64,000 nt of DNA from Enchytraeus crypticus (Eukaryota > Annelida > Clitellata > Enchytraeida > Enchytraeidae): assembly GCA_905160935.1 (NCBI GenBank), contig CAJHZI010000807.1, positions 756,001 to 820,000 on the forward strand, in the 5' to 3' direction. The notes under the pieces are model-generated. The model did no database searches, was not told the origin of the DNA, and worked only from the letters and a program-made list of their open reading frames with translations. Positions within the stretch are counted from its first letter, which is position 1; the number at the start of each line of letters is the position of its first letter. Positions 4,206 through 26,355 of this stretch are shown here, in pieces. Made by a program: the position numbers and the translations under genes.

Positions 4206-4382
4206 TCAGTAGACCCAGCTGACAGGGACCCACTGAGGCAGAGAGGCGACGTCCTCAAGCTTCTGCAGCAGCTGACTTATAGTGTCGTCTATGTCGTTGT
4301 TGTGGATGACGTGGTCGAAGTAGTGCCTGTACGCCTTTTCCAACAACTCGCTCTCTCGCGCCAATCTCTCCAAGCTTGCATC
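4206..4382 (-). CDS. CASK: CASK exon 23 (C-terminus, stop)
   Basis: Encodes [20 protein letters not shown], then [15 protein letters not shown], ending QWVPVSWVY and TGA. This is the conserved C-terminus of CASK. Confidence 0.96.
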   Translation of the reverse strand, partial: DASLERLARESELLEKAYRHYFDHVIHNNDIDDTISQLLQKLEDVASLPQWVPVSWVY

Positions 4383-4661
4383 CTACGACAAGTCATTAAT
4401 TATACATATATTACATCTAAAAATTATACATAATTGTACATAAAAATTAACTTAAATTTCACCTAAAAATGTTATATTAAGATCACCTTCATCATCACTC
4501 GCTTGTTTCAGAAATAAAGAATCCCCTAGTATAATTAAATAAAACTTGACCGCGAAATATAGATCATAGCATTACACAGGTATTTGGCCAGACGACTTAA
4601 CCAAGTCAGTGATGATATATATATATAGTATCATATATATATATATATTATAATATATATA

Positions 4662-4695
<34 letters not shown>

Positions 4696-4753
4696 TATAA
4701 TATTATATATATATATATATATAAGTATATACATGCATACATACATACATACA

Positions 4754-4822
<69 letters not shown>

Positions 4823-7800
4823 TATAAGTAGCAGGCTCTTACGTTGTTGAAGTTGACATCTTTCGGAGCAGCTATAAAGACAACATAGGGTGCAAAATCA
4901 GCGGTGCGCAGTACCTTCAGTGCCTGCATAAGCAACATAACAGTAATAGTATAACTCAGGCTGTTTATTAATTAGCATGAATTCCTAATTATCAGATAAG
5001 TTCAGGAATATTAATCTAATAATTTCATCTAATCAATTAATATACCAGTCATTCAGTCGGGAAACATCACTAAATTATTAATAAATGAATCAATCATTCA
5101 ATTAAAAAAAGCTGTAAAGATGTAAAAAAGCTGTAAAGATATTAATAATGACAGTTTTATCTTTCGAAGGCGATGTCAGTGACGGGCGAACCCAGGTTTT
5201 GAACCCCGCACATACTGATCCCCAGTAAGAATATTAGAGGATTCAACGTCCAGTTTTTCAGATAGGGGGATGACAAAGTAATCTCAAGTACCTTACAAAA
5301 CAAAAGCACTTTTAACACCTGAACAAATATTTACTTGTGCATAGACTGAAGAGAAACTACTATGAAACAGTGGGAAGTCACAGAGAAACAACTTTAGAAG
5401 CAAATAAATTTCCAAAGCTAAAGGGTTATATTAAGATTTAATAAGATGGAACTGACACGTTGAACATGGAATATCACTAAAGAGAGTGAAAGTAGATTGT
5501 GGATATTTATTCAGAATTGTCATTTGTCACTTTCCAGAGAAATTCTGAACGACTCTGAACTAAAGACGCCAATTCTACCATAGCAAAAAACAAAAATGCA
5601 GCAATTTTCAAACAATGCAATTTAAATTTTTCAGACTATAAGATCATCAAGTCTCATCGGCATCTATACGCTTGAGAGCACACCATTCGAGAACCGCCTG
5701 TGCTTAATAACTAACAAAGCTGTAGAGATAGTCAAAGAACAAATGACAGAAGTCCTCCTTTCTACATACAGCATAATATGCAATATATGTCTTCGTGAAG
5801 AAGATTTAAATTAGAAACTGCCTTAGGTACAACAACAAAAATAGAACGGGTCATCAAGTCAGGCTATTCAAAATCAGCTTAAGCCAAAAAAGAGATTACT
5901 TTAGCAATCTTTTCTAGTAGTCGCTCAAAACACTGTGTAAAAAGTTTCTATTTCATTCTTATATTTCTATTTGATTCTCAAAGCACATACAAGCAATGTT
6001 AAGATTTACTTTCCGTTTGTCTCCGTATAGAACCAGTTTTTAGAGTGCTGCGTTAAACCGGAATCAGCTTCCCGGATTAAACCGCAACATGCTTGACAAC
6101 TTATACTATGAGACCAGCCAAGTAATTTAAACAGCAGACTCGAATGGTTGACTGACCTGAGGCTCGATGTCGAGTATGGCGAGTAGATTCATGCGGTGAA
6201 TCTCTCTGATTGTTTCTAGCTTAGTCCCGTACATGGCGTTCTCGTGCTTGCCGTACTCGAGATACTCATTGGCTGAGATGTCCTTCATCATCTGCTGGTG
6301 CGTGACAAAGTGATAGTGCTTCCCGTGCTCCTCATCCTTGCGCGGTGCTCGTGTAGTGTCTGTGCAGACATCAGAACTAAAACACTAACTAGGAACTGAA
6401 TAGAACATCATCATAACACAGGAACATAAGAACTAAAACATCAACTAAAACTAGGAACTGAATAGAACATTATCATGATAAAAGACAATGATTACAGTAA
6501 GCAGATATTCTGATGTGCAAACAGCAGAACTAAGACACTAACTAAAACTAGGAACTGAATAGCACATCATCATAATAAAAGACAATGATTACAGTAAGCA
6601 TATGTTCTGATGTGCAAACAGCAGAACTAAAACATTAACTAAAACTAGGAACGGAATAGAACACCATCATAAAAAAGACAATGATTACAGTAAGCATGCG
6701 CAAACAGCAGAACTAAAACACTAACTAAAACTAGGAACTGAATAGAACATCACATAATAAATAAAAGATTATTACTCTAAGCATATGTTCTGATGTGAAA
6801 ACATTAGAACTAAAACACTAACTAAAACTGGGAACTTGAATAGAACATCATCATAATAAAGAACAATGATTGCAGTAAGAATTTATACCGATACAGAGTT
6901 AAAATAAGATATCATCATCATCATCATCATCATCATCGACCCAGTTTAACCAGGGTCGGGATACAAATAGACTGTCTCAAATCATCTCTATCCTACACCA
7001 CACCACCAGCCAATCCGCTGTTTTAGACTTTCATTTGTTTAAATTTTTGTAGCAATTTCTGGAGCCTAGGCGCTCAGCAACCGAATGCCCTTTCTGACGT
7101 TAATATGGATCTTAATGCTTTAGTCGCCTCCTGCGATACGTGCAGTCACCGGTTGGTCAATTCTTCAAACAACCTGGATACAACACGGGGAACCCGGATA
7201 CAAAAGAGGGATTGTAGTTAGAATAAGATATACGGGACTAAAATACTAACTAAAACTACGAACTGAATAGATAATACATGACATAAGAATATGACTATAA
7301 CCTGAAGACACAATGTAATGTGTCTCTGCAGAGCTATCAGCCAATGTAATGTCAGAAAGATTTCAAATTAGGGATCATTATAAACAGCTGAAGTATAATA
7401 TTAAGACTGCATAACAGATCAGTAAATATTAGTCCACAGTGCGTTATCAGTGAAAGAAGATTCATAGTGGATCTGTGCTTGCCGTCAAATAGAGATGACA
7501 ATTCTGCGACAATAATCTTTGTTTATGAATAGAATTAAAATAAAAACTAACAACCGTCTAGACAGGCACAGGACAGATACCAAGAGCCAAACTAGTTGTA
7601 CTTACGGGGTATGGGATATGCGAATTTGTCCGGGTACTTAGAAATCAATGTGTTCTTTATGTGTCGCCGGCCTACACCGTGAGCTCCTGTAAAATGCACA
7701 AATTCTAGAATCTTTAGAAAACAAAGTTACTTACGACAGAGATGTTTAGCATAACTGCTCATCAATGAGTTAAAACAGCCGACTGCCTAAAACTGAAATA

Positions 7801-10642
7801 AATAAAGTGCAGAACACCTTGAAAGATTAAAAAATTGTAAATAAGATTTTACATGGCAAAATTACAATAGGATTGGAACAAAGCTGCCCTTCAAAAATAA
7901 GGCATTGCCTAGACAGCAATTCAACATAACTTTAAGCATATCCTGATCGAAAGCAAAGAGTTAAACCTAGTAAAAACCTAATACTCTACACTAAAGCTAA
8001 ATCACAGATTATTCCTTCTACATGAAATGCTACTTGAATGGTGATTTATTTCCAATGCTTTCCTCAATATTAGCATAAATAGGACAATATAAAAAATAAT
8101 ATATCCTATTGTAAATAGGATGTATTATTTTTTAAGAGACAAGACAAGAGACAAGAGTTGAGAAGCCATGACTTGCTCATACCCAGCAGAACGAGTGTCT
8201 TGCGACGGAAGGCAGGCAGCCTGACGACCTCCTCATACGTCACCAGATCGAGCTGATCAAAGAGAGCGTTGTGCTTGGCCAGGTACTTGTCCTTCGTCAG
8301 GCTCTTCCTCTTGCTCTTACCACCGAACAGTCCACAGTTGACTAAATACCATCAACAGCATTAGCATACTTAGCAAACATAAGATACGTGAATACAGTAT
8401 GTGAATATGCTACGTGAATACACTACGATGTGTCTACTAGTATGACTACTATGATTAACAATGTTTAAGCATAATTTAATAAGACAATATAATAAAATTT
8501 TTAGTTTAATAGATACTAAATTTAATCTTGCGGGTTGTGATGTATATGATCTCGCCATGAATCGTGATTGGTGGAGGAGGAGGAAGGTTGTAAGAGACTA
8601 CTCTAGTGTCCACAAAGAGGCGCCATAGAGTTGATATATAATAATGTTTCATTAAAGACTAAAATATAATTTATCCTCAGTTAAAAATTAGTCCAAAAGT
8701 ACTTAAAAAACAATGCAAAGTAAGCCTAACGTTCCATGCGTTTTTAAATACCTTGCTTCGACATACATGAAAGTGTTGAGCAAAGCATGATGATTAAACA
8801 CATTAAATAAATAGATTAAATTAGAAGAATATAATACTACGCGTGTAGGAATCTCAATACTTTTAAAGCTGAAAAACTAGAACTCACGAATAATGCATGC
8901 TAAAAAAAGAGAATACAAGCATTTCGCAAGAAAGAAATAGATTACAGTAATTTAACAAGAAAAACGACTGATGAGATACTTGCGACTAATACTCGTAATT
9001 CACAGGAAATGATCAAATGAAAAGATGCAAAATTTAAGTTTTCTCTGAAGACATAAAGCGAGACACAATATCTGCATAAATCTAAAAGTTTATTCCACAA
9101 CACTGAACACGTTCCAGGCAATGACCAATCACCATAAGAAACTGCTCTACACCTAGAAACAGCCAGCTTTCTTGACTCAAAACTCAACCGATAACATTTC
9201 ATACCAGTTTTGGATTTATCTAGAGCCATATAGGTGCTGCGCCATTCCATGATTTCAGGAGAGGGGACAAGCCCCGCAGCACCCCCCACTCCCCCACTGG
9301 GCTCCATGCCCTCCCCCATTCTCAATCCAATGTCTCCACGTCGCAGTGAGTTAGAGTAGTCGTTGTACCATTTCCTCGCCTGCCACCAGCTGTGATCATC
9401 CTTGCTTATGATCTATAGCAACATCAAACAAATGAGTAGTTGTGATCATCCTTACTTATGATCTGTAGAAATATCAAACAAATCACCGGCTGTGATCATC
9501 CTTACTTATGATCTACAGCAACATGAAACAAATCACCAGCTGTGATCATCCTTACTTATGATCTATAGCAATATAAAAAATTTGTAATTATTCATTCACC
9601 AGTTGTGATCATCCTTGCTTATGATCTATAATATAATATAATAGCAACATCAATAAAATTAGTAATTATTTATTCAACATTTATGATCATCATTGCTAAT
9701 CAATAAGGAGTAATCATTCAGCACTTGCACAAAACTAAACCAAACCATATTCATAAAATCCATAACAAATAGTATTACTAAAGCAGGCGATAACAAAACA
9801 TATCATATGCTAGTTTCGCTCTCTCTTTATCTCACTCCAATTAGCATACTCCATGGATCAACAAACAAGTTAATCCCGCTTACCCAGGACAATGCCTTAT
9901 CCACACGTTAATGTAACAAATAGCTTGATTAAATTATTGCTTGCAAGGTGGTTTCTCTTTGATTTCCCTATTAAATCTATACGATACGTGCAGCAAACGG
10001 CTGGTCTATTCTTCAATAGCTGACACAATATGGCTAGCCCGAACACAACAGGGGAACATATATTTCAGTAACTAAAATAATAAAATAATTACAAAAAACG
10101 TTTACATAAACAGTACCAACTGTTCTTTTTATTCAAATTATTAAAAATCAATGCATAAACAAATAAATATTTAATTAATTAATTAAACTATTCATAATAT
10201 TTATGAATGATAGACCTGCAATATTTCACCGGTACTGAACCTGATACCAGCCTGCTTACATGGAATTAAATCATCTGTAGACGGGTCATAGTCAAATAGA
10301 GTCCTCACAAATATCTACGGCAAATAACAATTACATCAGTAAATAATTAGGTCAGTGAAAGATAAAATAGGACGAAGTTTAATTTGTTAATTGAATCTAA
10401 AAACTGGTTTTGATATGAATTAGAAATTTGATTGTGGTTGCTTTCCATGCCATAACGGAGCCCGAACGATGACACGAAAAATTATGAAATATTTAGGAGT
10501 AAAATTAGCATAATACAGCAAGACTGGTGAGACATTGTGAAGAGACATTGTAATGTTGTGAAGACATAAGAACTAATGTAGAAAAGCAATAATATAACAA
10601 CAGCGAGGATAAAATTATCTCAATACTTTTATATTATTACCA

Positions 10643-10683
<41 letters not shown>

Positions 10684-13663
10684 GCTAAAGTGCTCTGATT
10701 CTGTTGAAATGCCAGACGAAAGTATATATTCCTACACAATGTTAACTAACACATTAACACATCCTCAAAATAACACTTCAACAACTAAAACAATGATCCC
10801 AAGACTCAAGAACATAACATTTTGCCAAAATATTGCGCAGACTTTAGAAAAATATATTCCATGCGAGGTGGTTCCACTTCCTTTGTCATTTCCTGCTTAG
10901 CAGCCTTTTATTGCAGACTCAGTTACAGGTTGGTCTATTCTGTAGAGGCCCATACATATCACAAGCACAAATCATTAGTAGTTTAAGTCATTATCATCAT
11001 TGCCATCTTCCCATTAATCCCAGTTTATCTAGGGTCGGATCGAATAGACCTTTTACACTCCTCCTGGTCCCAAACCATATCATCAGACAATTCCTTATAA
11101 CTTCTTCTATTCGATTTATAAAATTTTGTAGCAATTTCTGGAACCTACGCGCACACAAACCGAATCCCTTCCTGACACTAGTTTGGATCTTAGCGCTTTA
11201 GTTACCTTCTACGACACGTGCAGTCAATGGATGGTCACTTCTTCAAACAGCCCGGACAAAAAACGGAGGAATCAATAGCTTAAGTATTAACTATTAATTA
11301 GGCCTATCGACAGTACATGCTCTATACTACAATGGGTCTTAAGATCATATGATCTCCGGACCTGCACCATTTAGGATCTTTATCTTTCTCTTCAGCACAT
11401 GTTTTTTCAGACCGTTTGGGGTGAATCGATTTGTGGTAACATGTGATGGGGGACGTCCCTGACATCATCCTTGTGCGAGGAAACGAACGTTAAACCTTTA
11501 TTGTTATTATTTTTATAAGACAAGAGACAGGGCACACACCTCACAGTGGGGAGGAGGGGTCCTGAAGCTAGGCACGACCTTCATCGTTATCGTGCCTCTC
11601 GCCTCTCTCTACAACAATGCAGACATCATCATAATCCATAAATAGCATCACAGAGAAATCTTGTTTAAATATCTATTCAGATTTAACAACAAAAGTCTCA
11701 AAACTTACTAGCATGAACATCCAACTGTAATATTATGAAAGTATGCAGAAGCTGGAAAATAAGCAACGAAAACTGCAATGTATCTTACGATTCTTCTACA
11801 AAAATGCTAACATTTAGCAATATTCACAATTTATGCCGAACTTGAAAAAAATTATTGTACTATCAGAAATACTGCCTGAAACATCAAACTATGACTGAAA
11901 ACGAGAGGTTAGCTTAACAGAATTTTGCACATGCATTTAGTTAAATAGCTAACATACCAGCGTTAAATAGCTAACATACCAGCGTTAAATAGCTAACAAA
12001 CCAACGTTAAATAGCTAACAAACTAGCGTTAAATAGCAAACATACCAGTGTTAAAAAGCAAACATACCAGCATATGCTGCAGTGTCTCGGCAGTCTGTCC
12101 CTGTGCAGTTACACCGTTTAACTCATATATCACGTCACCCACGTGCAGAGTCCCTATACCAGTGTACAAGAAGTATAAACATACAGATAATACTCGATCA
12201 CCAAAAGAGCTGCACTACAGTAAAATTAATTATAATTATAGTCAGAGCCAGTGGCGATGTCGATAAGATACTCGACCGCGGATCAGTATGTGCGGGGTTC
12301 AAATCTTTGGCTCGACCGTCACTGACATTGCTTTCGAGTGAATAAACTGACGTTAACCTTAGATTTACCAGATCTTTTATGCGCTGCTACAAAACGAATT
12401 TATAATCATCTGTGCATTGCAACAATGAAGAGTAGTTTTCTACCCTTAAAGCGAGAATGTGACTTTCACGTGTTGAGCCCAGGACACATAAGACATACAT
12501 TTGAAGGGATTAACTCTTGATCTAACATACCCTAGCGGTGAATCGAGCAATAACTGAATACATACCCTGGCGGTGAATCATGCCACCATGGATAATTCTG
12601 GCAATAACACATCGGCCATCACTGTTCAACTTCAAAGTAATACCCTGAAACAGAAAGTTGCATTAATCTCAATGAAATATCAACCAGAGTGGTTATAATC
12701 AGCGCCAAAAGATTTCAACCAGGAAATCAACGAGAGCATATCTAAAGTGCTACTTTATATACAATTTCACAGTAAGGGAAAGTTAAGCTGCACATAGACT
12801 CCTTTATGTCTGGATTTTGAGTACCCAACCAGTCTACAGTAGGGAAATCAAGGTCATAATGTCTTATGAAACCATATCAGTCATGGTTATAAGTGTGCAT
12901 GTTCCGCACACGGTTCCGCAAGGTTCTCTCAAAAAATAGTGCTTTTAATCAAGGTTAACAGCAATACCACTAATACTAACAACAGGTGCCTCAGTTTAGT
13001 ACCTCAAGAGTAATAAACAGCACCACTACAAACAACAGGTGCCTCAGTTTAGTACCTCAAGAGTAATAAACAGCACCACTACTAACAACAGGTGCCTCAG
13101 TTTAGTACCTCAAGAGTAATAAACAGCACTACTACTAACAACAGGATCCTCAGTTTAGTACCTCAAGAGTAATAAACAGCACTACTACTAACAACAGGAT
13201 CCTCAGTTTAGTACCTCAAGAGTTAAACAACACTACTACTAACCATCGGTTCATCGGTATTCCTCTGAAACTGAACAAGTCGAACTTTCATAGGCCCATT
13301 ACTCTCCTCTCCTTCTCCTACCAGTTCCTGACTGTCCATTGTTGAGGGGGGAGCCATCATCCCCTCACCTCTCTCACCACACACCCCTATGCCATTGGTA
13401 AAACCCCCTCCACTGATTCCCCCAACCCCGCTGCCGCTGGCGCCCCCCAATGAAGATCTCAAGGGGCCAGAGCCGCTAACAGCCGAGACGGTGGCTGGGG
13501 AACTCTCCCGCAGGTAGCAGGCCTCTCTACTGTACACAGCTCCCACCAGCACGTCCATCACCTGCAGTACAGCCTGTTCAATCAATCAATCAATCAATCA
13601 ATCAATGCTCCTCTGCTGTACACAGCTCCCACTAACACGTCCATCACCTGCAGTACAGCCTGC

Positions 13664-13697
<34 letters not shown>

Positions 13698-16600: not shown

Positions 16601-18675
16601 ATTAATTCAACAGTAATAAAACAGTTAACTGTTTATAGTTATGCTATTAAGTAAGTGTAGTGGTTTGCAATAAATAAATAAATAACAACCCCGTGTCAAC
16701 TACAACGATATAAAAGTATATGACCATATAAAAACTTACTAAAAAAGACACAGACAGACAAATACATATTGCATAGCCAAATATAGCACTGCATACATCA
16801 TTTATAAATTATCAAATTACATATAATTTAAAACAAAAATTACACTAACATTTCAACTTATATTTCATGTACAGAAATTTTAGTTGATTCTAAAACTTCT
16901 CAAGAATCTATCTTATTTGAATTAATTCCACTTAAATCTATGATAATGCCAGGATCCAATCTAAAAACTTTCACTTATATGTTGGCTATATGCCAGTTTC
17001 ATAAACATCACATTAGACAAATAAATATAAAAGTAAAGCACACCAGGTACAGTACGGCTGTCACTCAGTTCAGAGATGACAGTGTCGGGAAGTTTGCTGG
17101 ATGAAGACATGAAGTCATTGTACGAGGGAAGATCAGACTGAGGGTTCAAGGCGCTCCACATTGAACTATGAACAGATATCATCACCGACTCCTACAACGT
17201 GCGTTAACAAAATGTCATAGAAATATAATTCTCACACTTCATGAATTTAATAACAATTTAGGGGGCAAAAGGTATTTCTGTGAAGATGAAATTATTCACA
17301 AATGACGTACATAGGTTATTCGTAAGTAATCTAAAAACTAATTACTAATTCTTTTAATTAATAACAAAGAGTGTGTTTCATAATATTTCATCCACTCATG
17401 AAGAGCAACGTTGTAGGCGATAAATTTTCAAATTTTGTTTTCTACGGCCAATAGCTTGCATTTGATTCTAATTTTAGTTATTTAAGTCACATTATTGACA
17501 ATGACCAAAGCGATTATTTCAATTTTAGCAAGAAATCATAAACATTTTTTTGAGGACTAAGTGTTAAAACGCTGATTTTTCTTATGTTCGCTGGCACTTA
17601 AAGTGAAATTGTTAGAAAGTTTTTGTCCGTGCTTTGAAGCTGTAGCACTTTGAAAAAATTCTAGTCAAACTATCTTTAAGCGAATAATATCGTGCTATAA
17701 CAAGTGTATTAAATTCAATATTTAAGACAATGGTATCGGATTATAACAAGTGAGTTAAATTCCTTTACAATTTTCCTAAATTCAGTATCACTGGAGTTTG
17801 TATGTATCCAGCTTTGCTAACATTTGATACATATTAACATTTGATACATATATTATATATCACAAGAGTTACCTTGTTTAATTCAGTATTAAAGCTAAGG
17901 TTAACGTCAGTTTCCTCACTTGAAAGCGACGTCAGTGACGGGCGAGCCCAGGAATTGAACCCCGCACATACTGGTCCGCGATTGAATATCTCACCGACAT
18001 CGCCACTAGCTCCAGCCATTAAGGTAATGTAACCATCAATTTGTTCTATTGGAAGTGAAACTTAGGATGAGCATCAGTCATTGATTTGTGTATTTTGCAC
18101 TGAATTGCTACTGGATGTTAATTTCTATGTCTTATTTTAATACGGACTGTTATATGTCCTAAATAAATGAGTGATGAAGATGATGATAGTAAAAATTAAT
18201 ACAAATATAGTATATTTAACATTAGATCAAAATAAAATGTTCACTGACAGAGACAGTTAAAAAAAAAAAAAAAAAGCCTACTCCTACTACAAATCAATAG
18301 CACTAAAGATTAAACTAACAACTAAAAATCCATAACACTAATAACGACATAGTAACGATGCTAAATATGAAGTAACCTTGAGTTTTCGTTGAGTATTGAA
18401 GCGTATCAGAGACTGCACAGTTTCACTGAGGTGTATCTTAGGTGCTCGACCGCGCTCCTGAAGCAAGACAACCCGCGTTAACACAAAATGCAGATATTAG
18501 GTGACTTTTTACATGCATATGGGGAAAGATTCTAACGAATTGGTAGAGTGTGTGGCTCAGAATATGAACATCTAAGTTCAAATCACAAGGTAAATCCTTC
18601 ATTTTTGAAATTATAAATGTTAGCACAACATCAATTTTGAATGCAAAATGTAACTCGACCAACAAAAGGAAGAAA

Positions 18676-18754
<79 letters not shown>

Positions 18755-21700
18755 CCACGGGTACTTGAGTGCATAGTATAGTGTAAGTATAGTATATAAA
18801 CCCTGATCTACGGGTGCTTGAGAGTATCATAGAATATAAGTATAGTATTTAAACCTTGATCCACGGGTGCTTGAGAGTATAGTAGAGTATAAGTATAGCG
18901 TATAAACCTTGATCCACGGGTGCTTGATAGTATAGTAGAGTATCAGTATAGTATTTAAACCCTGATCCACGGGTGCTTGAGAGTATTGTAGAGTATAAGT
19001 ATAGTGTAGCATTGTAGAGTATAAGAATAGTATATAAACCCTGATCCACGGATGCTTGAGTGCATCTTCCACCGTGATGCGATGCTGAGGATTAAGCTGA
19101 AGCATCCCGTGCAGTAAATTCTTAGCATCGTCTGATATCTCTAAAAACTGTCGGCTGCGAGTCTACAATCAATCAGAATCATATACATTAAACTCATATA
19201 ACACTTAGCAACAGCATCTGGAGATCTTTAGATTACGTATTCCAATCAAAATGAAAATTAAGCAATGGACAGAACGTAACCTGTGCAATACATGATGTTG
19301 TGCTATGTACAAACAAATGCAACGTAAACTGTAAACTTGTTAAGTAAGATACATTAAAAACACATTCTAGAGAATTAGCTAATCAGTAGCAATGAAAAAA
19401 AAACTGTCACCTATTACAAAATCTAATTACATCTAACTTTTGTCAAAAAAAGTATAAAAAGAAGATGTACTCAATAGAATTTGACTTTAATAATTCTCAT
19501 AAAACTTAACAGACTAACTAATGACGGACTGATTAATACTTGCCCATCACTGAAATCACTTTCGAGTGAGGAAACTGATGTTAACATTAGTTTTACCAGC
19601 TTTTACTTGCTTATCATCAGGTCAAATCAATTCTACGTATGATAGAAAGCACAAACCAGTTCCTGTACGTCCTCAGTGATGTATGGATATCTACCGACGA
19701 GCAGCAGGTGCAGTATGTGACCCAATGACCACACATCAACGGCCTTGCCATGTGGCTCGCTCCTCCGTCGCTCAGGAGCATCAAACTCACAACTTGTACT
19801 CACGTATCCTTAAATAAATCAATCAAAAAGATCTTACTATCAGTCAGCCACTCAATGGCTCAACTACATGATTGAATCTAATTTTAAATTACTACTAAGT
19901 AATATAATAATTAATTTCAATAGAATTATCAAGAGAACAAGTAGCAGCAGTTTAGAAAAACTAATATTATTATTGAACAATAATTAAAATAATTAATTTA
20001 ATAATTATCATGGTAAGAAACTAAAAATAAACTTAGTCCTACGGGGAACACTTGAAGAATTTTGTACATACCAAACTTTTCTCTTTCAAAGCTAATACAA
20101 ATTCTTGATGCCACTTTTCTCTCTTCATCTTCCACTGGAAATAAAATATAATCAAGTAGATAAGTATACAAAATCATCATTTAAAATTATATTAATTATA
20201 CAAGTATAAAATATTTGAGTGTTGAGGGGATTAGGGATAGGTTGGCTCAGTCGACATTGAGATAATATAGGCATATAGATGAGGACGTAGTAAAGACAGT
20301 TTGGAGGGAAGAGCTGGATATTAAGCTAACGAGAGGTAGACCACACCTGACGTGGGTTGCAGTGATTAAGAAAGACATGAAAAATAGGATATTGACTGCT
20401 GATATGGTGCGGGATAGAGAGGACTGGAGAATGTCTATTCATATTCTGATCCTGATTACACTGAGATTTAAGGGAAGATGCTGATGATGATAAAAGTATA
20501 AAATCAGCAAGTACATAAGAAAGTATAAGAGCATCATTCAAAAGAAACTGAGCAATATGAGCATGCTACAACTATCATTCGTGCAATGAGTACAAAGTGT
20601 TCCACATACTACTTTGAAAACTGTCCATCTTAATCAAGCCAACTGCTTCTCAGTAGCTCAGATCTAAATTAGCCTAACGTTAGCCTGCGTTAACTGCAAT
20701 ATTAGCTAAATTAAAGCTTTTTAAATAATTATTTAAAACAATTATTTAAAACAATTATTTAATCAGAATTCGGATTTTGTTACGCTAAATAGCAGCTATC
20801 CCTTTAATCCCAGTTTAACTAGGATCTTACATTAACATATTTTCAATTAAACTATAAATGTTAACAGTAATACCATTCTCAATAGAAATATCCCTAATAT
20901 CATCAGAAGAAAATTCCATAAAATCTTGCTAATTATGAATTTCTTATTACTAATCTTGCTACTTAAATATCTAGGACTGCAAATTATATTTACTATTAAT
21001 ACTATCATACCAATTAAGAATGGACACAATAGCACAACGACTGTTTATTACTTAATGTCTAAAAAAAACATCTATAGCATACCAAAATAATCATTGTTCT
21101 CAAGTTCCTCCACATCAATAGCCGACTGAAAGTATGTAAGTTTGATCGGAGAAGAGTTCTCTTTATTAGCCAGCTGAATACAATGTGGTGCAATGGCTCT
21201 ATGCACGATGCGATTAGAATGGCAGTGTCTAACTGCATCCAACACCTGACGCATGTAGTGGCTGCAACAATCAATCAATCAACTAACGAATCAATCATTA
21301 TGTATTACCCTAATGTACTCTGACATTGATGACCGAAGTTCTTTATTTATAATTTACCAGGTAGGCTGGTTAATAAATAATTTATAATGCCTGGTATCCC
21401 TGATGATATAAAAGACCACGTCCTAACAATGTTAAACTTATTACCATCATCACCATCATGATCATCCCTGAATTCCAATTTAACTAGGGCCAGGATTAGA
21501 AAATTTTGTAGTAATATCCAGAACCATTGTGCTCACCAACAGAATGCTCTTTCTGACGGTCGTTGGGATCTTATTAATTTGTCACTTTTTATGATAACGG
21601 CAGTCCACTGTTAGTCTATTCTTCAGCAACCGGGACAAAACACGGGTAAAACCTACATACAGCGGGTTAAAACACAGGTTAAAATATACATGGGCTAAAA

Positions 21701-24700
21701 CATACATGGGTTAAACCAGTATATTATTATAATTGATAATATCAGAAGCACGCTCAACATTATGATATAGTACTGTCGACAATCCAAACATACATATACA
21801 ATCCCTGACAACCAATTTGTGAAAATATCAAAAACTAGCAGTCGTCTAGTCAGTACACTAAAAGCTCATTAGCTCAACTTTCAAGTTCTTCAACCTGCTC
21901 AGATTTAACAATAACGACTGTAATCAGCTGAGTTTGAGAATTTTCTACAGCATCCAATGCAGTCTATTATTAGTTATACTACAGACACAGTAATTAAATG
22001 AATTACACGACAGATCTCCCAGCCTATGAATCTATCTAAGCATTACCTTCCAGTGCAAGCTCCGAACTCTTTTAATTGTGGGTTTGCTGAGTTCACGCTC
22101 ATATGTTGGATAGTAACTAATACAGTCACTAATCTAGCACTTTCTTCAGCCTCAACATTGTCATACACGTTATGGTGGTGTAGAATTCCTTGCGTCTCCC
22201 TGACTTTGATTTTGAGTGATGAGCATTTAATCCCATTAATGGACGGATCATACAAAAACACGCATGACATCAAGCCGCCAAGGTATTTTGTTTGTTTAAT
22301 GCAGAGAATCTAAGCCAAAATAACAATAGCGTAGACAGGAAGAGAGATGGAATTACCTCGCCACAGCCTCACTGTAGACAAAACCACCAAGAGCTCTTCT
22401 CACAATCTCAAAGCACAGATCTGCGCCCTCCAGGCTACAACAACAAAAAGAGGATGAATCCATAAAATCAAAAGATAGCACAAAGCAAACTATACCTAAA
22501 AAAACCATAAACTCAATTCTTCCAAAAAAGAAGTTAATAAATTTTAAACGGCATTTGCAGCCATCAAATTAAGCATGAATTCATTGACCAACACTGCTAA
22601 TGAGATATCAAAAATTTATCACGAATGGTTAATAAATTTAGTATAATTTTTGTTTACTAATGGTGAAATTTTGAATTTATAATGTCTCCTAAGGGACAAC
22701 AGAGAGGTTCATAATAAGAGAGAGAGAGTTTCATAATAACATCCATTCTCTAAAAAAAGTACTCTTATAAGAAATGTTACATTTTTCAATAGAACTCTAT
22801 GCTATCCATTCTACACATTTATCCACATTCTGCACATCTATCCACTAGCATTTATCGCTGATTGACAAATCTCTTCAAATGTATACATAAATATAATAGA
22901 TATACTAATATCTCAGAACAAACAACCAATTGGGTTTAAATTGATTAAATTTACATAAATTTTTTCAATATGAGTTTGAAAACAAATCAAAACTTACTAT
23001 TCAAACAAGAAGTAGAAGAATCTTTCATCGTAAAATGTATCCAGTAGACCCACAATATTGTGATGCTTCAGACGCGGATAGATACCGGCCTCTCTTCGAA
23101 TATCTGTAATAATACAACAAATATCAGGAGGGTTTGAATAACAATTAAATACTTCTTAATAGTACATAATGACCAAATAGTTAATGATCTCTTTCTCATA
23201 GAAACATTATTACATAGAGAGGCCAGAAGTACTGTAACCACCGCGGTCGGTAAGATACTCGACCACGGATCATTATGTGCGGGGTTCAAATCCTGAGCTC
23301 ACCAGTCACTGACATCATTTTCGAGTGAGGAAACTGACGTTAACATTAGCTTTACCAGCTGACTAGACAGGTATATTGCCCCAAAAATTCACCAAAGTTG
23401 AATATCACTGACAGCAATAACACTGCCAATCAATGCATTTTCTATACGCTATAATGCATTTTCAGGTTATATCATCTATCTCGCTTAATGCATATCATAG
23501 AATATAAAGCAGAACTTTACGTATACAGAACGTATACAGACTTTGAGAAATTAGGAACAAGTTAGGTGTTTAACTTACTTAAGCTCAATCTAAATAAATT
23601 CCAATCTTATCTAGGTGTGTTTCAGCATATTTAGACATAATCCTGGGCCAGCTAGGGTCAATGATGAATAGATCAACTGCAAAATGCACAGGTCATAAGA
23701 AATAACCCCAAGTAACAAATGAGGCAGGCAAATTAAAACGCTCTCAGAAATCATATCTTTACAAGCTAAAAGTTACATTATTGAGTGAATAATACATTGC
23801 TTATTGTGAAGGGAATAACTAGTTGATCGACGGAGTGCTTGTTAAGTAGTGTGATCGCAGACAGAATAGAAATATATGCTATGGAACTGTGACTCGGCAG
23901 AACACTAGAGAGGACTGAAACTTAGATTTTTTCAAGCGCTATCAGACTGAGAAGCTATCAAATATTCAATAGTATTACCCGCCATAGAGAATCCACAAGA
24001 ATTAGTAAATAACTGAATGTCAATTATCTTTACAGCAAACGCCTGACCAGATTTCTTGCTGACACATCGTCTCAATATACTGCATGTACCCCTGATAAAA
24101 CAGATATAAGCACAATAATATAAAGAATTTATTTTTACATGACTATATCATCTTGTTTAGTTTAAATTCTGAATACAAACAAATTTTGAAGTCATTCAGA
24201 ATGCATTTTTATTATGACAAACCAAGTCTCTAAATAGGTACAGAAATATTAGTAACCCTATGGACTTGAGAAAATATATTCAGATGATACAAATATTTAT
24301 CATAGCGTCAGTTTCAATGAAGTACTCTCTGCTGTTGTGCGCATTAGTGATGTATTGGTAAACAGATACACAGAGCTGGACAGGGTCAATTAGACAGACT
24401 ACAGAAGATTCAGAATGCTGCACCTATGTTTTTCATATCTGGTAGTAGCAAACATGAACATATTGCTCTTGTCTTGTGTGACCTTCATTAACTTCCTATT
24501 TTTCAAACAATTGAGTGCAAACTTTCGTCTATTGTTTACAAGAGCCTACATCACCAAGCTCCTACGTTGCAATGTCTCTACCCTATCAGATCATAACAAA
24601 CTTTCATTTGCTTATGCTCTATATTCCATGAACCAGAACGACGATGGGCCCCGGGGATCTGCTCTCTCAGGGCTTAGGCTGTTTAGAAAACTCAACCTGC

Positions 24701-25577
24701 TAGTCTTGTACAGTCAGACAGGTCCCTCCCTTTTGTGCTTTCAGAAGAAGCTTAAGACTATTTTGTTCAATCGTGCAAAAAATTAACTATTGTGGCTTAC
24801 TGCATAGAGTGTCGCTCATATAATTTCACTTGTTATTGTTATGATCTCACCTTATAAGACTACAATGTGTTTATACAGAATATAAAACCAAAAATGATCT
24901 CATTTTATTGACAACACTGTGTAAACAAATAATTGACATCACAACAAGGTATCAAACTGTGGATTAGTAAATGGAGGGTTCAAATCCAGTGCTTTGCCCT
25001 ATCACTGACCTATTTCGAGATAGGAAACAACATTAAACTGGGTTTTAGCCGTTGGAATTTAGCTCTTGATGTGTCACCAGGACTTCTATGATGCAAAAAT
25101 TGACTTAAAATTGCATGTAGTCTTGCCGTAAACAATTAGATAATTTGCATAATAATTGTAAACGACTGATAACATAGAAACTGCGCTAAATCTAAACAAC
25201 TTCGAGTCACAGACAGTAAAAGAGGTGACGGCCAACAATTTAATAAATTAATGCGTAGTTTTGAAATCAAATGCAGCAGAAATGCCAGAAGATAATTTGA
25301 GATATCCTAACAATAGTTTCTCCAAATTCTCTTAATGCGCCTATTAAACTTATCATTCTTACTAAGCAAATCCTTAGCATCAGCATGCCATATTTATCTG
25401 TTTGATTGGTAACTTTTAAAACGCATAAACAAAATAACAATTTCAAGTTATTAGGCTAGGATAATAGCTAGTAATGAAAACATACTTAGCAATTACTTCA
25501 CGGATTTCATACTCTTCTTCAAATGCAGTTCCATTAGAGTCATTCAACTCTTCACCGTTGCCCCTTTCTTCATCCAT
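4206..25577 (-). CDS. CASK: CASK/LIN-2-type MAGUK scaffold, 23 coding exons, 970 residues (gene span)
   Basis: Complete split gene. Coding exons in 5'-3' order: 25577-25486, 24091-23979, 23103-22998, 22434-22357, 21261-21083, 19808-19657, 19162-19040, 18457-18377, 17191-17044, 16237-16125, 15688-15611, 14428-14351, 13573-13244, 12644-12566, 12153-12068, 11608-11540, 10314-10216, 9412-9205, 8341-8183, 7686-7606, 6359-6157, 4923-4843, 4382-4206. Every junction is GT-AG with matching phase and the total is divisible by three. Domains: CaMK-like about 22-278, two L27 about 310-450, PDZ about 544-633, SH3 about 636-725, guanylate-kinase-like about 783-965, ending WVPVSWVY like vertebrate CASK. The family scaffolds synaptic and epithelial junction complexes (Veli, Mint, neurexin, syndecan) at the membrane. 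The start ATG has A at -3 and G at +4. The kinase lacks HRD and DFG; residues 448-541 form a Gly/Ser-rich linker and the SH3 has an insertion. Assignment by remembered homology; exon 9's donor is the least certain border. Confidence 0.96.
4614..4820. repeat. Compound (TA)n/(TACA)n microsatellite in last CASK intron
   Basis: (TA)n tracts surround about 12 copies of TACA/CATA at 4731-4782. The open frames across it are simple-repeat artefacts. Confidence 0.95.
4843..4923 (-). CDS. CASK: CASK exon 22 (guanylate-kinase-like)
   Basis: Encodes [20 protein letters not shown] and then KDVNFNN, matching the family's [20 protein letters not shown]. The donor GTAAGA lies against a (TA)n tract in the next intron. 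Confidence 0.95.
5155..5235 (-). mobile_element. tRNA-derived SINE (family S1), partial
   Basis: On the minus strand it reads the S1 body: a GGTTCAAA-like B box, then CCCGTCACTGACATCGCC and a TTCGA-type tail. See 36333-36475 for a fuller copy. Confidence 0.75.
6157..6359 (-). CDS. CASK: CASK exon 21 (guanylate-kinase-like middle)
   Basis: Encodes [18 protein letters not shown], then [16 protein letters not shown], ending [10 protein letters not shown]. These are the GMP-binding-fold segments of MAGUK GK domains. The donor is GTCAGT. Confidence 0.96.
6360..6860. repeat. Intronic tandem repeat next to CASK exon 21 acceptor
   Basis: Five units of about 95-115 bp built on GAACTAAAACACTAACT, AGGAACTGAATAGAACATCA and AAGACAATGATTACAGTAAG. 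The unit nearest exon 21 begins at its acceptor, and other units carry a degenerate version of that border (GTGCAAACAGCAG). Confidence 0.85.
6912..7206 (+). mobile_element. LINE-tail SINE-like repeat (family S2)
   Basis: Runs from CATCATCATC and a CAGTTTAACCAGGGTCGGGA block, through GTAGCAATTTCTGGAGCCTA and CTTTAGTCGCC, to ACAACACGGGG. The same order occurs at 10986, 21444, 36005 (reversed) and 40875. One end matches the end of a LINE reading frame, see 20221. Confidence 0.8.
7606..7686 (-). CDS. CASK: CASK exon 20 (guanylate-kinase-like start)
   Basis: Encodes [20 protein letters not shown] and then [20 protein letters not shown] is identical to the MAGUK GK-like loop, which is non-catalytic in this family. 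Confidence 0.96.
8091..8133. repeat. Small inverted repeat in CASK intron 19
   Basis: 20-bp arms (8091-8110 and 8114-8133) with one mismatch and a 3-base loop. Confidence 0.85.
8183..8341 (-). CDS. CASK: CASK exon 19 (SH3-GK hook)
   Basis: Encodes [12 protein letters not shown] and then [20 protein letters not shown], followed by the segment ending RRKTLVLL. It is strongly conserved with CASK. Ends in phase 1; the split glycine starts the GK P-loop-like segment. Confidence 0.95.
9205..9412 (-). CDS. CASK: CASK exon 18 (SH3 second half with insertion)
   Basis: Opens [13 protein letters not shown] and later reads [13 protein letters not shown], both CASK signatures. Between them sits an insertion of about 20 residues, rich in Gly and Met. 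Ends in phase 1 at GTATGA. The acceptor and first ~29 coding bases are repeated upstream in a 50-bp array (9413-9690). Confidence 0.93.
9391..9690. repeat. 50-bp tandem array copying the exon 18 splice acceptor
   Basis: TGTGATCATCCTT recurs at 9391, 9441, 9491 and 9541 with exact 50-bp spacing, then near 9603 and degenerate near 9680. On the minus strand each unit is a polypyrimidine-poor CTATAG or CTACAG followed by the exon's first bases (ATCATAAGCAAGGATGATCA). Confidence 0.95.
9880..10065 (+). mobile_element. SINE-like repeat (family S3), partial
   Basis: Shares CAATGCCTTATCCA, a GGTGGTTTCTC-like block and ACGTGCAG..AACGGCTGGTCTATTCTTCA with 29860-30180 and 57205-57472. Confidence 0.65.
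10216..10314 (-). CDS. CASK: CASK exon 17 (SH3 first half)
   Basis: Encodes [20 protein letters not shown] and then [13 protein letters not shown], matching the family's VRAQFEYDP..DDLIPCKEAGI..F. Phase 0 at both ends. Confidence 0.94.
10647..10681. repeat. (CT)n microsatellite
   Basis: About 16 CT dinucleotides. Confidence 0.98.
10860..10965 (+). mobile_element. SINE-like repeat (S3), fragment
   Basis: GCGAGGTGGTTCCAC, CTTAGCAGCC and ACAGGTTGGTCTATTCTGTA match the 3' half of S3 copies. Confidence 0.5.
10986..11275 (+). mobile_element. LINE-tail SINE-like repeat (S2)
   Basis: Same block order as 6912-7206: CCCAGTTTATCTAGGGTCGG, AATAGACC, GTAGCAATTTCTGGAACCTA, CTTTAGTTACC, ending with ATGGTCACTTCTTCAAACAG. 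Confidence 0.8.
11540..11608 (-). CDS. CASK: CASK exon 16 (PDZ end)
   Basis: Encodes [20 protein letters not shown] and then HCE, the last PDZ strand (family consensus REMRGSITFKIVPSYR) and a very short linker. The linker to SH3 is far shorter than in vertebrates unless an unseen small exon lies between 10315 and 11539. Confidence 0.92.
11935..12067. repeat. ~21-bp tandem array copying the exon 15 donor
   Basis: Five to six units of GCGTTAAATAGCTAACATAC. On the minus strand each begins CTG-GTATGT or a GTTTGT variant, the exon 15 donor context. Confidence 0.93.
12068..12153 (-). CDS. CASK: CASK exon 15 (PDZ)
   Basis: Encodes [20 protein letters not shown] and then AETLQHML, the PDZ core with the LHVGD and ING-like motifs. 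The donor context CTG-GTATGT is repeated in the intron (11935-12060). Confidence 0.95.
12240..12365 (+). mobile_element. tRNA-derived SINE (S1)
   Basis: A-box-like TGGCGATGTCGATAAGAT, B-box GGTTCAAATC, then the family tail with CACTGACATTGCTTTCGAGT and CTGACGTTAACC. Located in CASK intron 14. Confidence 0.85.
12520..12566. repeat. Duplicated donor of CASK exon 14
   Basis: CATACCCTAGCGGTGAATC (12526-) repeats the true border CATACCCTGGCGGTGAATC (12561-), a 35-bp tandem duplication spanning the last ~14 coding bases and the GTATG donor. Confidence 0.88.
12566..12644 (-). CDS. CASK: CASK exon 14 (PDZ)
   Basis: Encodes [20 protein letters not shown] and then GMIHRQ. GITLKL is the carboxylate-binding loop of the PDZ. 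Ends in phase 1 before GTATGT; a second copy of this donor lies about 34 bp into the intron. Confidence 0.95.
12955..13243. repeat. 53-bp tandem array copying the exon 13 donor
   Basis: Five units containing CTCAGTTTAGTACCTCAAGA. Each carries the minus-strand donor GTTAGTAGTAGTG or a near variant. Confidence 0.93.
13244..13573 (-). CDS. CASK: CASK exon 13 (L27 end, Gly/Ser-rich linker, PDZ start)
   Basis: The longest exon, 110 residues. It opens [20 protein letters not shown], the end of the second L27. A Gly/Ser-rich low-complexity linker of about 90 residues follows, longer than in vertebrate CASK. It closes [14 protein letters not shown], the invariant start of the CASK PDZ. Tandem arrays flank both ends (13574-13930 and 12955-13243). 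Confidence 0.94.
13574..13960. repeat. ~90-125-bp tandem array copying the exon 13 acceptor, with (AATC)n
   Basis: Four units (13605, 13694, 13798, 13925; the last decayed). Each holds CTCTGCTGTACACAGCTCCC and CGTCCATCACCTGCAGTAC plus (AATC)n. On the minus strand this is an AG acceptor plus about 55 bases of exon 13. Confidence 0.94.
14351..14428 (-). CDS. CASK: CASK exon 12 (second L27)
   Basis: Encodes [20 protein letters not shown] and then AKENFQ. It aligns with the family's VLEEI...ELKRILTQPHF segment. Phase 0 at both ends. Confidence 0.9.
14470..14605 (+). mobile_element. tRNA-derived SINE (S1)
   Basis: GGAGCCAGTGGCGACGTC, GGTTCAAATCCTGG and TGAGGAAACTGACGTTAAC in the family order. 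Confidence 0.88.
15611..15688 (-). CDS. CASK: CASK exon 11 (L27)
   Basis: Encodes [20 protein letters not shown] and then LQRSLQ, 26 residues bounded by phase-0 junctions. LYDxI matches the CASK L27 junction. Confidence 0.9.
16041..16178. repeat. 69-bp in-frame duplication of CASK exon 10's 3' end
   Basis: Units 16041-16109 (intron side) and 16110-16178. They share CCCTACCTGTA and TTCTATCGTTAAACATGGCA at exactly 69-bp spacing. Confidence 0.96.
16125..16237 (-). CDS. CASK: CASK exon 10 (L27)
   Basis: Encodes [14 protein letters not shown] and then [16 protein letters not shown], an L27 helix pair. The donor GTAGGG is followed by a 69-bp in-frame copy of the exon's 3' end (16041-16109) carrying its own GTAGGG donor. 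The exon may therefore end at 16056 in some transcripts. Confidence 0.92.
17044..17191 (-). CDS. CASK: CASK exon 9 (start of L27 region)
   Basis: Encodes a divergent segment starting [15 protein letters not shown] and continuing DLPSYNDF, where CASK has AVLAAVSSHKFNSF...LPDF. Two in-phase donors fit exon 10: GTGTGC after 17044, or GTACTG after 17056. The second removes four residues. The reading frame is certain, the 3' end is not. Confidence 0.8.
17865..18025 (-). mobile_element. tRNA-derived SINE (S1), near full length
   Basis: Minus strand: GGAGCTAGTGGCGATGTCGG, then GGGGTTCAATTCCTGGGC, then TGACGTCGCTTTCAAGTG and the family tail. Confidence 0.88.
18258..18275. repeat. A homopolymer
   Basis: About 18 consecutive A in CASK intron 8. 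Confidence 0.95.
18377..18457 (-). CDS. CASK: CASK exon 8 (post-kinase linker)
   Basis: Encodes [20 protein letters not shown] and then NTQRKLK, which aligns residue for residue with the family's region after the kinase domain. The donor is GTTACT. Confidence 0.93.
18677..18751. repeat. (TA)n microsatellite
   Basis: Uninterrupted TA apart from one TACA, ending against the exon 7 donor array. Confidence 0.98.
18749..19039. repeat. 53-bp tandem array copying the exon 7 donor
   Basis: Five units, each with GATCCACGGGTGCTTGAG or a close variant. On the minus strand this reads CTCAAGCACCCGTGGATC and GTTTA, the last coding bases and donor of exon 7. Confidence 0.95.
19040..19162 (-). CDS. CASK: CASK exon 7 (kinase C-lobe end)
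   Basis: Encodes the segment ending [15 protein letters not shown], as in CaMK-type kinases. The donor is GTTTAT. The last 19-20 coding bases and the donor are repeated five more times downstream in the intron, 18749-19039. Confidence 0.92.
19540..19612 (+). mobile_element. tRNA-derived SINE (S1), 3' half
   Basis: CACTGAAATCACTTTCGAGT and AACTGATGTTAACATTAG match the family tail; the tRNA-like head is missing. Confidence 0.75.
19657..19808 (-). CDS. CASK: CASK exon 6 (APE motif, helix F)
   Basis: Encodes an APE motif (residues 200-202), then [18 protein letters not shown], the helix F and DVW motif of the kinase fold. The fold is therefore kept although the catalytic residues are gone. The donor is GTTTGT. 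Confidence 0.93.
20221..20500 (+). mobile_element. LINE fragment, C-terminal coding end and 3' tail
   Basis: Broken frame reading GRPHLTW, then [20 protein letters not shown], typical of the C-terminus of jockey/RTE-type LINE polyproteins, followed by GGGAAGATGCTGATGATGA. The stretch from GCTGATATGG to GATGATGA also ends the S2 repeats, so S2 probably borrows this LINE's tail. Lies in CASK intron 5. Confidence 0.7.
21083..21261 (-). CDS. CASK: CASK exon 5 (degenerate catalytic loop and DFG region)
   Basis: Opens with [10 protein letters not shown], as in CASK. The catalytic loop reads HRAIAPHC at residues 150-157, where human and fly CASK have HRD. The DFG position reads YFQ (173-175). The CASK-typical [11 protein letters not shown] segment lies between them. 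Ends in phase 1 before GTATGC. Confidence 0.95.
21444..21650 (+). mobile_element. LINE-tail SINE-like repeat (S2)
   Basis: CCATCATCACCATCATG, AATTTAACTAGGGCCAGGAT, TTTTGTAGTAATATCCAGAA, and the GTTAGTCTATTCTTCAGCAA end. Confidence 0.75.
22357..22434 (-). CDS. CASK: CASK exon 4 (kinase hinge, helix D)
   Basis: Encodes [18 protein letters not shown] and then VYSEAVA. This is nearly the CASK consensus [12 protein letters not shown]...FVYSEAVA. Confidence 0.95.
22998..23103 (-). CDS. CASK: CASK exon 3 (alpha-C helix)
   Basis: Encodes [20 protein letters not shown] and then [14 protein letters not shown]. It matches the family's KREAS...LKHPHIVELLE segment, with the helix Glu kept. Ends in phase 2 at a strong GTAAGT donor. 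Confidence 0.93.
23222..23365 (+). mobile_element. tRNA-derived SINE (S1)
   Basis: GTCGGTAAGATACTCGACCA, GGGGTTCAAATCCTGAGCTC and GAGGAAACTGACGTTAACAT; the 5' end is slightly worn. Confidence 0.88.
23979..24091 (-). CDS. CASK: CASK exon 2 (glycine loop and VAVK lysine)
   Basis: Encodes [13 protein letters not shown] then [10 protein letters not shown], matching the family's beta 2-3 region. Lys52 in FAVK is the ATP-contacting lysine and is kept. The glycine loop is weak (A-K-G-T-C-S). Ends in phase 1 before GTAATA. Confidence 0.93.
24365..24790 (+). mobile_element. CR1/L2-type LINE fragment (RT C-terminal region)
   Basis: One frame reads [12 protein letters not shown], then [15 protein letters not shown], then [16 protein letters not shown]. 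This is the usual post-RT segment of CR1/L2-like LINEs (LQ..QN.AAR...HI.P.L..LHWLP...YK.L). Stops and frame changes show decay. Sits between CASK exons 1 and 2; it is not a CASK exon. Confidence 0.75.
24945..25055 (+). mobile_element. tRNA-derived SINE (S1), degenerate
   Basis: GTGGATTAGTA, GGGTTCAAATCCAGTGC, CACTGACCTATTTCGAGA keep the family order with many changes. Confidence 0.65.
25486..25577 (-). CDS. CASK: CASK exon 1 (start codon, N-terminus)
   Basis: Begins [10 protein letters not shown] and ends at EYEIREVIA plus two bases of Lys31; the donor is GTATGT. The acidic N-terminus leads into the first beta strand of the kinase fold. A CAG sits 4 bases upstream of the ATG, so a 5' UTR intron ending there is possible. 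No promoter motif could be recognised upstream. Confidence 0.9.
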
Positions 25578-26355
25578 TTTTCTGCATATCAAACAAATAA
25601 CAGAATACCAGTAGAAGATATGCATGATAATAGCAGCGATAAATATATAGTAACTGACTACTTAATACTGACTACTAAAGAGAAGTCAGCTCCAATTAAT
25701 TAGAAAGTGTCCATCAATGAAGATTATTACATCAATAGCTAAATAATAAAACTGCAGCTTTTGTTACCGTCTCCAGTGTGATTATCAGATTTTAACTAGA
25801 TTACGCACACACACGATTTAAATGCATGCTGTAAACATTAGGCTGAAATTCTTGAAATAACTTTGTCAAGTACGCCGCAAAGTACTTCTTTACCATTTTG
25901 CCAGAGAAACAATGCACTAAATACCGCATTGTGATATCTCAGAACACGAATGTGTTACGAGAAAAAGAACAACTAGGAGAAATTTCTACCTCAGATATAC
26001 TCCACAAATATTCAGAATTTATACATTAACTTATAAAATAAAAACTAAATAAAAGTAAACATATCAGGCTAGTGTTGCCAACAATTTTTTGAAAAGGGCC
26101 GAAAAAGGAAAATTTAATTAAACCACCAACAACAACACAACTTAGAGTGCTAGTGTATTTTCTGTGACTATATTTGGTGCTATGAAGCCAAATCCAACTG
26201 ATGAGCAGAGTGTGGGGTCGAACTACAGAGTGAACAAAAGCCGGGAATTCAGTCTAAGGAAGGCTTTTTAAGCGGAATGGAGGCTTACAGGTTTGCCTCA
26301 CTTCATGGACATTGCGTGTAAACTGTTTAGGCTACTACAGGAAGGATCTTGTGAG

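Follow-up and report, generated by a model that had tools for sequence, protein, structure and literature searches.

The CASK Locus and Its Neighbours

The window, by which we mean the whole 64-kb stretch of DNA that was analysed, carries a complete CASK gene and the 5' part of a dual oxidase (DUOX) gene.

4206..25581, minus strand: CASK gene, complete; spliced open reading frame of 24 exons and 991 codons
56505..63436, plus strand: DUOX, 5' part, 8 exons; animal haem peroxidase domain, best PDB match dual oxidase 1

The CASK exons (E1 to E24) were called by reading, in one open frame, and all 23 introns between them are of the GT-AG type. The initial annotation had counted 23 exons, one too few, and its exons 7, 10, 13, 14, 15, 18, and 21 are E8, E11, E14, E15, E16, E19, and E22 in the numbering used here. 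Pfam recognizes protein kinase, L27, PDZ, and guanylate kinase domains in the product, with SH3 slightly below the cut-off. Among the 120 matches listed, the homologues are 44-50% identical to it, and the best come from Aplysia, Lineus, and vertebrates; in a tree of 12 rows the CASK branch was very long and its placement was not obtained.

The window also contains several repeated or mobile sequences. A reverse transcriptase reading frame (PF00078) on the minus strand, 31831-33813, is 64-68% identical over nearly its full length to a few environmental proteins, and from the domains of these relatives it may be taken as a putative non-LTR element. Short tandem stretches rich in GTTCGG recur at 27606-27738, 34285-34361, 35523-35638, 53294-53405, and 54513-54616, and by eye they appear to lie on either side of a dispersed repeat roughly 1 kb long. 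A shorter dispersed repeat occurs in several CASK introns (12210-12390, 14460-14620, 17930-18000, 23240-23345, and others) and carries a stretch resembling the tRNA T-loop, GGATTTGAACCC, so that by eye it is likely to be a SINE; a search of the window against Rfam gave no match at gathering score.

Tandem Arrays at the CASK Exon Borders

A scan of CASK for local duplications with offsets of 14-150 bp and a minimum score of 16 yields ten clusters once low complexity is filtered out, and a splice border lies inside six of them: the donors of E8, E11, E15, and E16, and the acceptors of E14 and E19. One further cluster abuts the donor of E14, one lies near the acceptor of E22, and two weak ones are situated mid-intron. 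The claim from which we started, that tandem arrays sit at the splice borders of at least six CASK exons, is borne out by these counts, and with other scores a border is inside 5 of 7 clusters (score 18) or 6 of 14 (score 14). The named arrays are the following.

18751..19060, minus strand: E8 donor array, unit 53 bp, exon border at 19040/19039
16041..16175, minus strand: E11 donor duplication, 69 bp in two copies, with the last 51 coding bases and GT
13525..13952, minus strand: E14 acceptor array, three close copies spaced 86, 90, and 103 bp, 49 coding bases copied
12968..13243, minus strand: E14 donor-side array, unit 53 bp, with its start precisely at the intron's first base, no coding sequence included
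12525..12579, minus strand: E15 donor duplication, offset 35 bp, two copies, with 14 coding bases and gtatgt
11940..12071, minus strand: E16 donor array, 22 bp in six copies, GT in every copy, 4 coding bases
9384..9697, minus strand: E19 acceptor array, units of 50 bp, four intronic copies with AG and at most 29 coding bases
6368..6879, minus strand: E22 acceptor-side array, units of about 97 bp, a loose case with no coding bases copied

They were found again by TRF, by copy-by-copy alignment, and by the duplication scan, except that the two-copy case at E15 is without TRF support. The E8 copies include the last 21 or so coding bases and keep the GT in four of five cases, and an old copy of the E14 acceptor (70%) lies at 14033-13967, 155 bp beyond the close ones. 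That the arrays repeat the splice site together with 14-55 adjoining coding bases is true of E8 (21), E11 (51), the E14 acceptor (49), E15 (14), and E19 (29), but not of E16, where only four such bases are copied, or of the E14 donor, where there are none. The looser case suspected at E22 is indeed loose, since the array ends 8-27 bp short of the acceptor, depending on threshold, and takes in no coding sequence.

The CASK units resemble neither each other nor anything elsewhere in the window, bar one 15-base match in a TGAT stretch, and among the eight units there is no cross-match beyond one of 9 bases that is attributable to chance. Within CASK the earlier description of unrelated units, each confined to its own array and sharing position rather than sequence, can therefore be kept, and a single dispersed element is not their source. 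Neither are they repeats of the kind that random sequence produces, a possibility ruled out by one Markov shuffle of the introns and flanks (58,746 bp), which gave 0 clusters. An assembly artefact is scarcely credible: the copies within an array differ from each other (roughly 82-100% alike), arrays are spread over many contigs, and exon ends mean nothing to an assembler.

Placement of Arrays in CASK and DUOX

When the CASK clusters are compared with random placements at three thresholds, with an overlap of 60-75 coding bases allowed and the abutting E14 donor array counted as touching its border, their concentration at borders has p values of 0.0001-0.017. When each cluster is confined to its own intron, p is 0.001-0.002, and in a unit-level test it is 0.0004-0.006. 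Counts based on TRF are weaker. The seven strong TRF arrays, if they may overlap coding sequence by 100 bases, give p = 0.009-0.08, and arrays of all strengths give 0.036-0.053 (14 arrays) or 0.06-0.15 (20 arrays). Taken pointwise, 8 of 46 borders lie in arrays against 9.7% of random intron points, an excess that is not strong. With the same kind of test as is used for other genes below, CASK alone has four donors in clusters where 1.07 are expected (p = 0.015) and two acceptors where 1.07 are expected (p = 0.29).

As a control within the window, none of 14 DUOX borders lies in an array, and none of the four DUOX clusters contains a border. The DUOX introns hold three strong minisatellites off the borders (58071-58398, 59173-59452, and 60184-60515), the last of which starts 17 bp past a donor.

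These numbers leave room for a reading by chance, in which minisatellites are generally abundant, the model of what introns tolerate is a strict one, and it was the striking look of CASK that led to its selection. The unraised pointwise coverage and the non-significant TRF counts at the weak end accord with it, as do the negative results at acceptors in DUOX and in the other MAGUK genes described below. Since CASK is a single hand-picked gene, it could not by itself settle whether exon borders attract arrays.

Acceptor Excess in Other Genes

The genome sampled for this purpose comprises 524,188,772 bases on 802 contigs, and the sample outside CASK consists of 55 introns in chaperonin, MCM, proteasome, MAGUK, and DUOX genes, families that were chosen by hand and not drawn at random. 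Gene models other than those of CASK, DUOX (in part), and CCT7 are profile hits combined with splice scores.

Some observations on the same genome stand apart from the arrays. COX1 is complete on a contig of 15,205 bases (C802), where it stays open under the invertebrate mitochondrial code (code 5). AGA occurs at positions where a serine is conserved in the nearest relatives of solved structure, and this reading speaks against tunicates and vertebrates. There are five COX1-like fragments with stops (on C361, C424, C796, C373, and C166), one of them below the cut-off. An uninterrupted frame of 554 codons at C373:1699388-1700899 matches the chaperonin family over positions 3-486, nearly the whole length, and is perhaps an intronless Hsp60 of mitochondrial type. 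Two identically scoring chaperonin-like matches in a frame of 894 codons (C259:219813-222410 and C400:245545-248142) are perhaps uncollapsed haplotypes.

In the sample outside CASK, an acceptor lies inside 20 of 46 clusters, where 5.8 are expected (p = 9.5e-8), and a donor inside 3 of 46, where again 5.8 are expected. Counted by intron, 20 of 55 acceptors and 3 of 55 donors are in clusters (Fisher p = 1e-4). If at least 10 exon bases are required to be included, and CASK is added, acceptors are in 13 of 38 clusters with 4.2 expected (p = 1e-4). The null windows were drawn with 60 or 80 exon bases allowed, for which the expectations differ somewhat. The proposal of an excess of arrays at exon borders thus holds beyond CASK for one kind of border: acceptors show it, donors do not, and a donor rule outside CASK is rejected by the count of 3 of 46. 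It follows that the wider rule is one of acceptor anchoring, to which the donor arrays of CASK are the exception. Tests against random placement, which the initial annotation had recommended for the whole genome, favour borders in the sampled genes, both in CASK (p = 0.0001-0.017) and, at acceptors, elsewhere (9.5e-8), with the reservation that the weaker CASK counts reach 0.15.

This signal can be followed in the chaperonin family, which was picked as conserved and intron-rich before its arrays had been looked at and from which nine genes were taken. Here 52 of 57 matches were used; excluded were four matches on C259 and C400 and the C373 match, which has no intron. Introns were called between consecutive profile hits (27 called, 21 kept at a score of at least 5). 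Twenty clusters touch these 21 well-called introns, with an acceptor inside 12 and a donor inside none. When exon ends are counted instead, the acceptor side is in an array in 16 of 51 cases, compared with 5, 4, and 2 of 51 at control points 200, 300, and 400 bp upstream; the point 100 bp upstream gives 9 of 51, a figure in which the same arrays may be partly double-counted. Donor-side ends are in arrays in 3 of 47 cases, compared with 4, 4, 6, and 2 at control points between 100 and 400 bp.

For CCT7, 11 introns obtained by spliced alignment replaced the called ones, which brings the chaperonin total to 27 introns. The gene was modelled on a homologue 81% identical to the query composite, and 7 of its 11 acceptors, with none of its 11 donors, are inside arrays. 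The copies are easily recognized; in one example, an acceptor with the opening codons of the exon that follows it recurs two or three times upstream. The homologue pieces adjoin or overlap at 9 of the 11 junctions, as expected when the exon-proximal acceptor is used, and the placement of the other two, around residues 4 and 150, depends on the alignment program.

The remaining families are smaller. In MCM genes, where five of eight matching contigs were taken and one of their 17 matches (C268) was unused, 4 of 11 acceptors and 2 of 11 donors are in arrays, with a borderline p of 0.054 for acceptors. In proteasome genes (10 regions with 22 of 27 matches; introns called in four regions, one pair uncalled) the called introns give 1 of 5 acceptors and 0 of 5 donors (p = 0.26, not significant), and the exon ends 4 of 15 acceptors and 0 of 17 donors, with 0 of 13, 0 of 12, and 2 of 12 at upstream control points; the donor figure leaves out, under the margin rule, two ends close to the fetched edge (L060, L064) at which arrays are in fact present on the donor side. 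In MAGUK genes apart from CASK, 0 of 5 acceptors and 1 of 5 donors are in arrays when introns are counted, and 0 of 14 and 2 of 14 when exon ends are counted, the latter from 14 of 25 non-CASK matches, with two acceptors that had no candidate AG set at the start of the hit. None of the seven DUOX acceptors is in an array. Chance, with its general abundance of minisatellites, is made unlikely by the chaperonin set, fetched before its arrays were seen (p = 3e-10, 60 exon bases allowed), and by the pooled genes outside CASK (p = 9.5e-8); this applies to acceptors, and for the donors of CASK the explanation by chance still stands.

The uneven distribution over families invites another explanation. 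A germ-line mutational process tied to transcription or splicing, for instance through R-loops or cleavage of nascent RNA, might act at 3' splice sites, and acceptor arrays would then accumulate in the genes that germ cells transcribe. The chaperonin, MCM, and proteasome families are, in general, ubiquitously expressed, and 20 of 43 acceptors are arrayed in them compared with 2 of 35 in CASK, DUOX, and MAGUK genes (p = 9e-5). The presence of an acceptor excess and the absence of a donor excess also agree with such a process, but the division of the genes was drawn after the chaperonin result was known, and without chaperonin genes and CASK it leaves 5 of 16 versus 0 of 12 (p = 0.053). We regard the germ-line process as rather unlikely. 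Its fullest form, in which splicing-linked events in the germ line repeatedly copy 3' splice sites, arraying about half of the acceptors of ubiquitously expressed genes (20/43) and largely sparing donors and tissue-restricted genes, so that splice sites would leave a footprint in DNA, is in our judgement unlikely.

The Fate of the Copied Splice Sites

The initial annotation had suggested selection for redundant splice sites as one reason why arrays recur. Such selection would maintain the copies as backups or for the sake of isoforms. Several observations in the copies could be read in this way. In CASK the splice-core columns are the less variable ones (3/32 versus 74/237, p = 0.011, with p values from 0.0008 to 0.18 in other comparisons), which is possibly a sign of constraint, and many copied sites score as high as the sites in use. 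Of 58 border-bearing acceptor copies, 53 retain the AG, where 48 are expected if it decays as the rest of the copy does; a first count, in chaperonin genes, had found it in 29 of 33. The second donor of E11, in the duplication at 16041-16175, has a score equal to that of the first, and its use would add 23 in-frame codons, so that, judged from sequence, no other site is as good a candidate for a genuine alternative isoform. The three close copies at E14, finally, translate into the 16 residues that the exon encodes, with 5 of 5 changed columns synonymous.

Against selection, the AG-bearing copies are in frame with the AG in use in 18 of 53 cases, which is the chance third and shows no preference for reading frame. 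Among the alternative CASK sites listed (score above 3), only the donors E11 +69 and E8 +132 keep the frame without a stop. One of the E8 copies carries a stop, and the intronic copies of E19 (9463-9630), when read in the exon frame, meet a stop at codon 10 in three of four cases, which is where the copied stretch ends, and at codon 13 in the fourth, so that their use would truncate the protein. Three of the five changed columns at E14 are common to all three close copies and may be changes of the exon itself, arisen while it was under constraint. Selection for redundant sites, with little support from these counts, we hold to be quite unlikely. A coding function for all copies is rejected both by the variable columns, whose bias over codon positions is not significant (7, 5, and 10; p = 0.16), and by the stops at E8 and E19. 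The older E14 copy, at 70%, still reads much like the exon, and the E14 copies, this one with the three close ones, may be a relic or, possibly, alternative mini-exons.

By these counts the copies look tolerated rather than used; the reading frames of CASK would demand the exon-proximal site.

Simple-Repeat Tracts and a Possible Origin of the Arrays

The tracts before acceptors contain more simple repeats than random intron sequence (p = 7e-6, 57 introns), and donor sides do not (p = 0.12). The simple-repeat index is higher for the 17 acceptors with arrays than for the 40 without (p = 0.04), although the gap between the medians, 0.425 and 0.385, is small. About half of the 17 acceptor units, by eye, have a (TGAT)n or (TG)n stretch just ahead of the AG, and among 21 units from CASK and chaperonin genes cross-matches occur only between those with tracts of TGAT or TG type. 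The statement that the units are unrelated must, outside CASK, be modified to this extent. Since TTGAT also agrees with the loose branch-site consensus, such tracts could serve splicing.

What is directly established is a local tandem duplication of unrelated units, with copies of coding sequence in introns, and an acceptor excess, in genes picked irrespective of their arrays, that outside CASK has no counterpart at donors. With moderate confidence we take the arrays to be exon-border minisatellites of the mirage kind that prefer acceptors, seeded by slippage in the acceptor tract and tolerated in their extra copies. To see how they may arise, consider an acceptor whose tract is built of short tandem units such as (TGAT)n or (TG)n, as is often the case. 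Slippage or unequal exchange would begin there, and the duplicated unit would now and then extend over the AG into the start of the exon. Later exchange would add further copies on the intron side. If the spliceosome stays with the exon-proximal site, the one joined to the full-length exon, the duplication would be tolerated, and the extra copies would remain intronic and evolve nearly neutrally.

Slippage seeded at the acceptor tract would account for the preference for the acceptor side. CASK itself, with four donor arrays and only two acceptor arrays, speaks against it, and the E11, E15, and E16 units, which have no simple-repeat tract, cannot be explained by acceptor-tract slippage. The simple repeat could also be a consequence of the arrays and not their cause.

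Discussion

The original paper on mirages is reportedly that of Canestro in 2002. In later accounts, mirages are tandem duplications of exon-intron borders in the amphioxus genes for Adh3, globins, troponin C, and PGBD5, situated at either border, with unit lengths between 10 and about 160 bp, AG or GT retained in many copies, splicing apparently undisturbed, and variation in length (PMC3087553, PMC3902484). The arrays described here are alike in that tandem units span the border in six CASK clusters and at 20 acceptors and 3 donors outside CASK, that either border can be affected (four donors and two acceptors in CASK, with a strong acceptor bias elsewhere), and that many, though not all, copies keep the AG (53/58 at acceptors). 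They differ from the mirages described there in that many borders of one gene are involved, and in that an acceptor excess without a donor excess outside CASK has been counted against a null model of placement. The structure is the same as that of mirages; what is new is the setting, the density, and the preference for acceptors. No cephalochordate is named among the 120 CASK and 120 CCT7 matches listed, many of the latter being without names. Among those listed, matches that do carry an organism name are at most 50% (CASK) or 74% (CCT7) identical, and the best named ones for CCT7 are from insects, annelids, and a brachiopod.

Related phenomena are found in other genomes. In human segmental duplications, internal tandem repeats on exon-intron boundaries differ among paralogues of recent origin and can give rise to new introns (PMC2812944). 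The placement on exon-intron borders is shared with our arrays, which unlike those repeats lie in introns of conserved genes, where no new intron was seen. In an RdRp gene of potato, an intron was gained by tandem duplication over an intron-exon border, with proof from RNA (PMC4974935). There, as here, the duplicated segment is the 3' end of an intron with the start of an exon, but the potato case is one duplication, and here arrays of several copies occur with no sign of a new intron. Introners are copies of one element that insert into many genes (PMC9860276). Both involve repeats that carry splice signals and occur in many genes, but introners, or any single dispersed element, are rejected here by units that are unrelated and local (the eight CASK units; 21 units that share only TGAT or TG tracts). 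Mutually exclusive exon duplicates, in which an entire exon is copied with its two splice sites, do not fit clusters that reach 4-79 bases into the exon, and NAGNAG tandem acceptors, which are separated by a few bases, do not fit best offsets at acceptors of 30-115 bp.

Among the matches listed in a search of largely open-access literature, no genome-wide report of border arrays appeared. If the pattern seen in the sampled genes is genome-wide, this animal would offer very many natural tests of how the spliceosome chooses among near-identical acceptors some 30-115 bp apart, and its border duplications would form a permanent reservoir of raw material for new introns or exons. The mirage would then not be confined to lancelets and would have a preferred side, which would constrain how mirages form.
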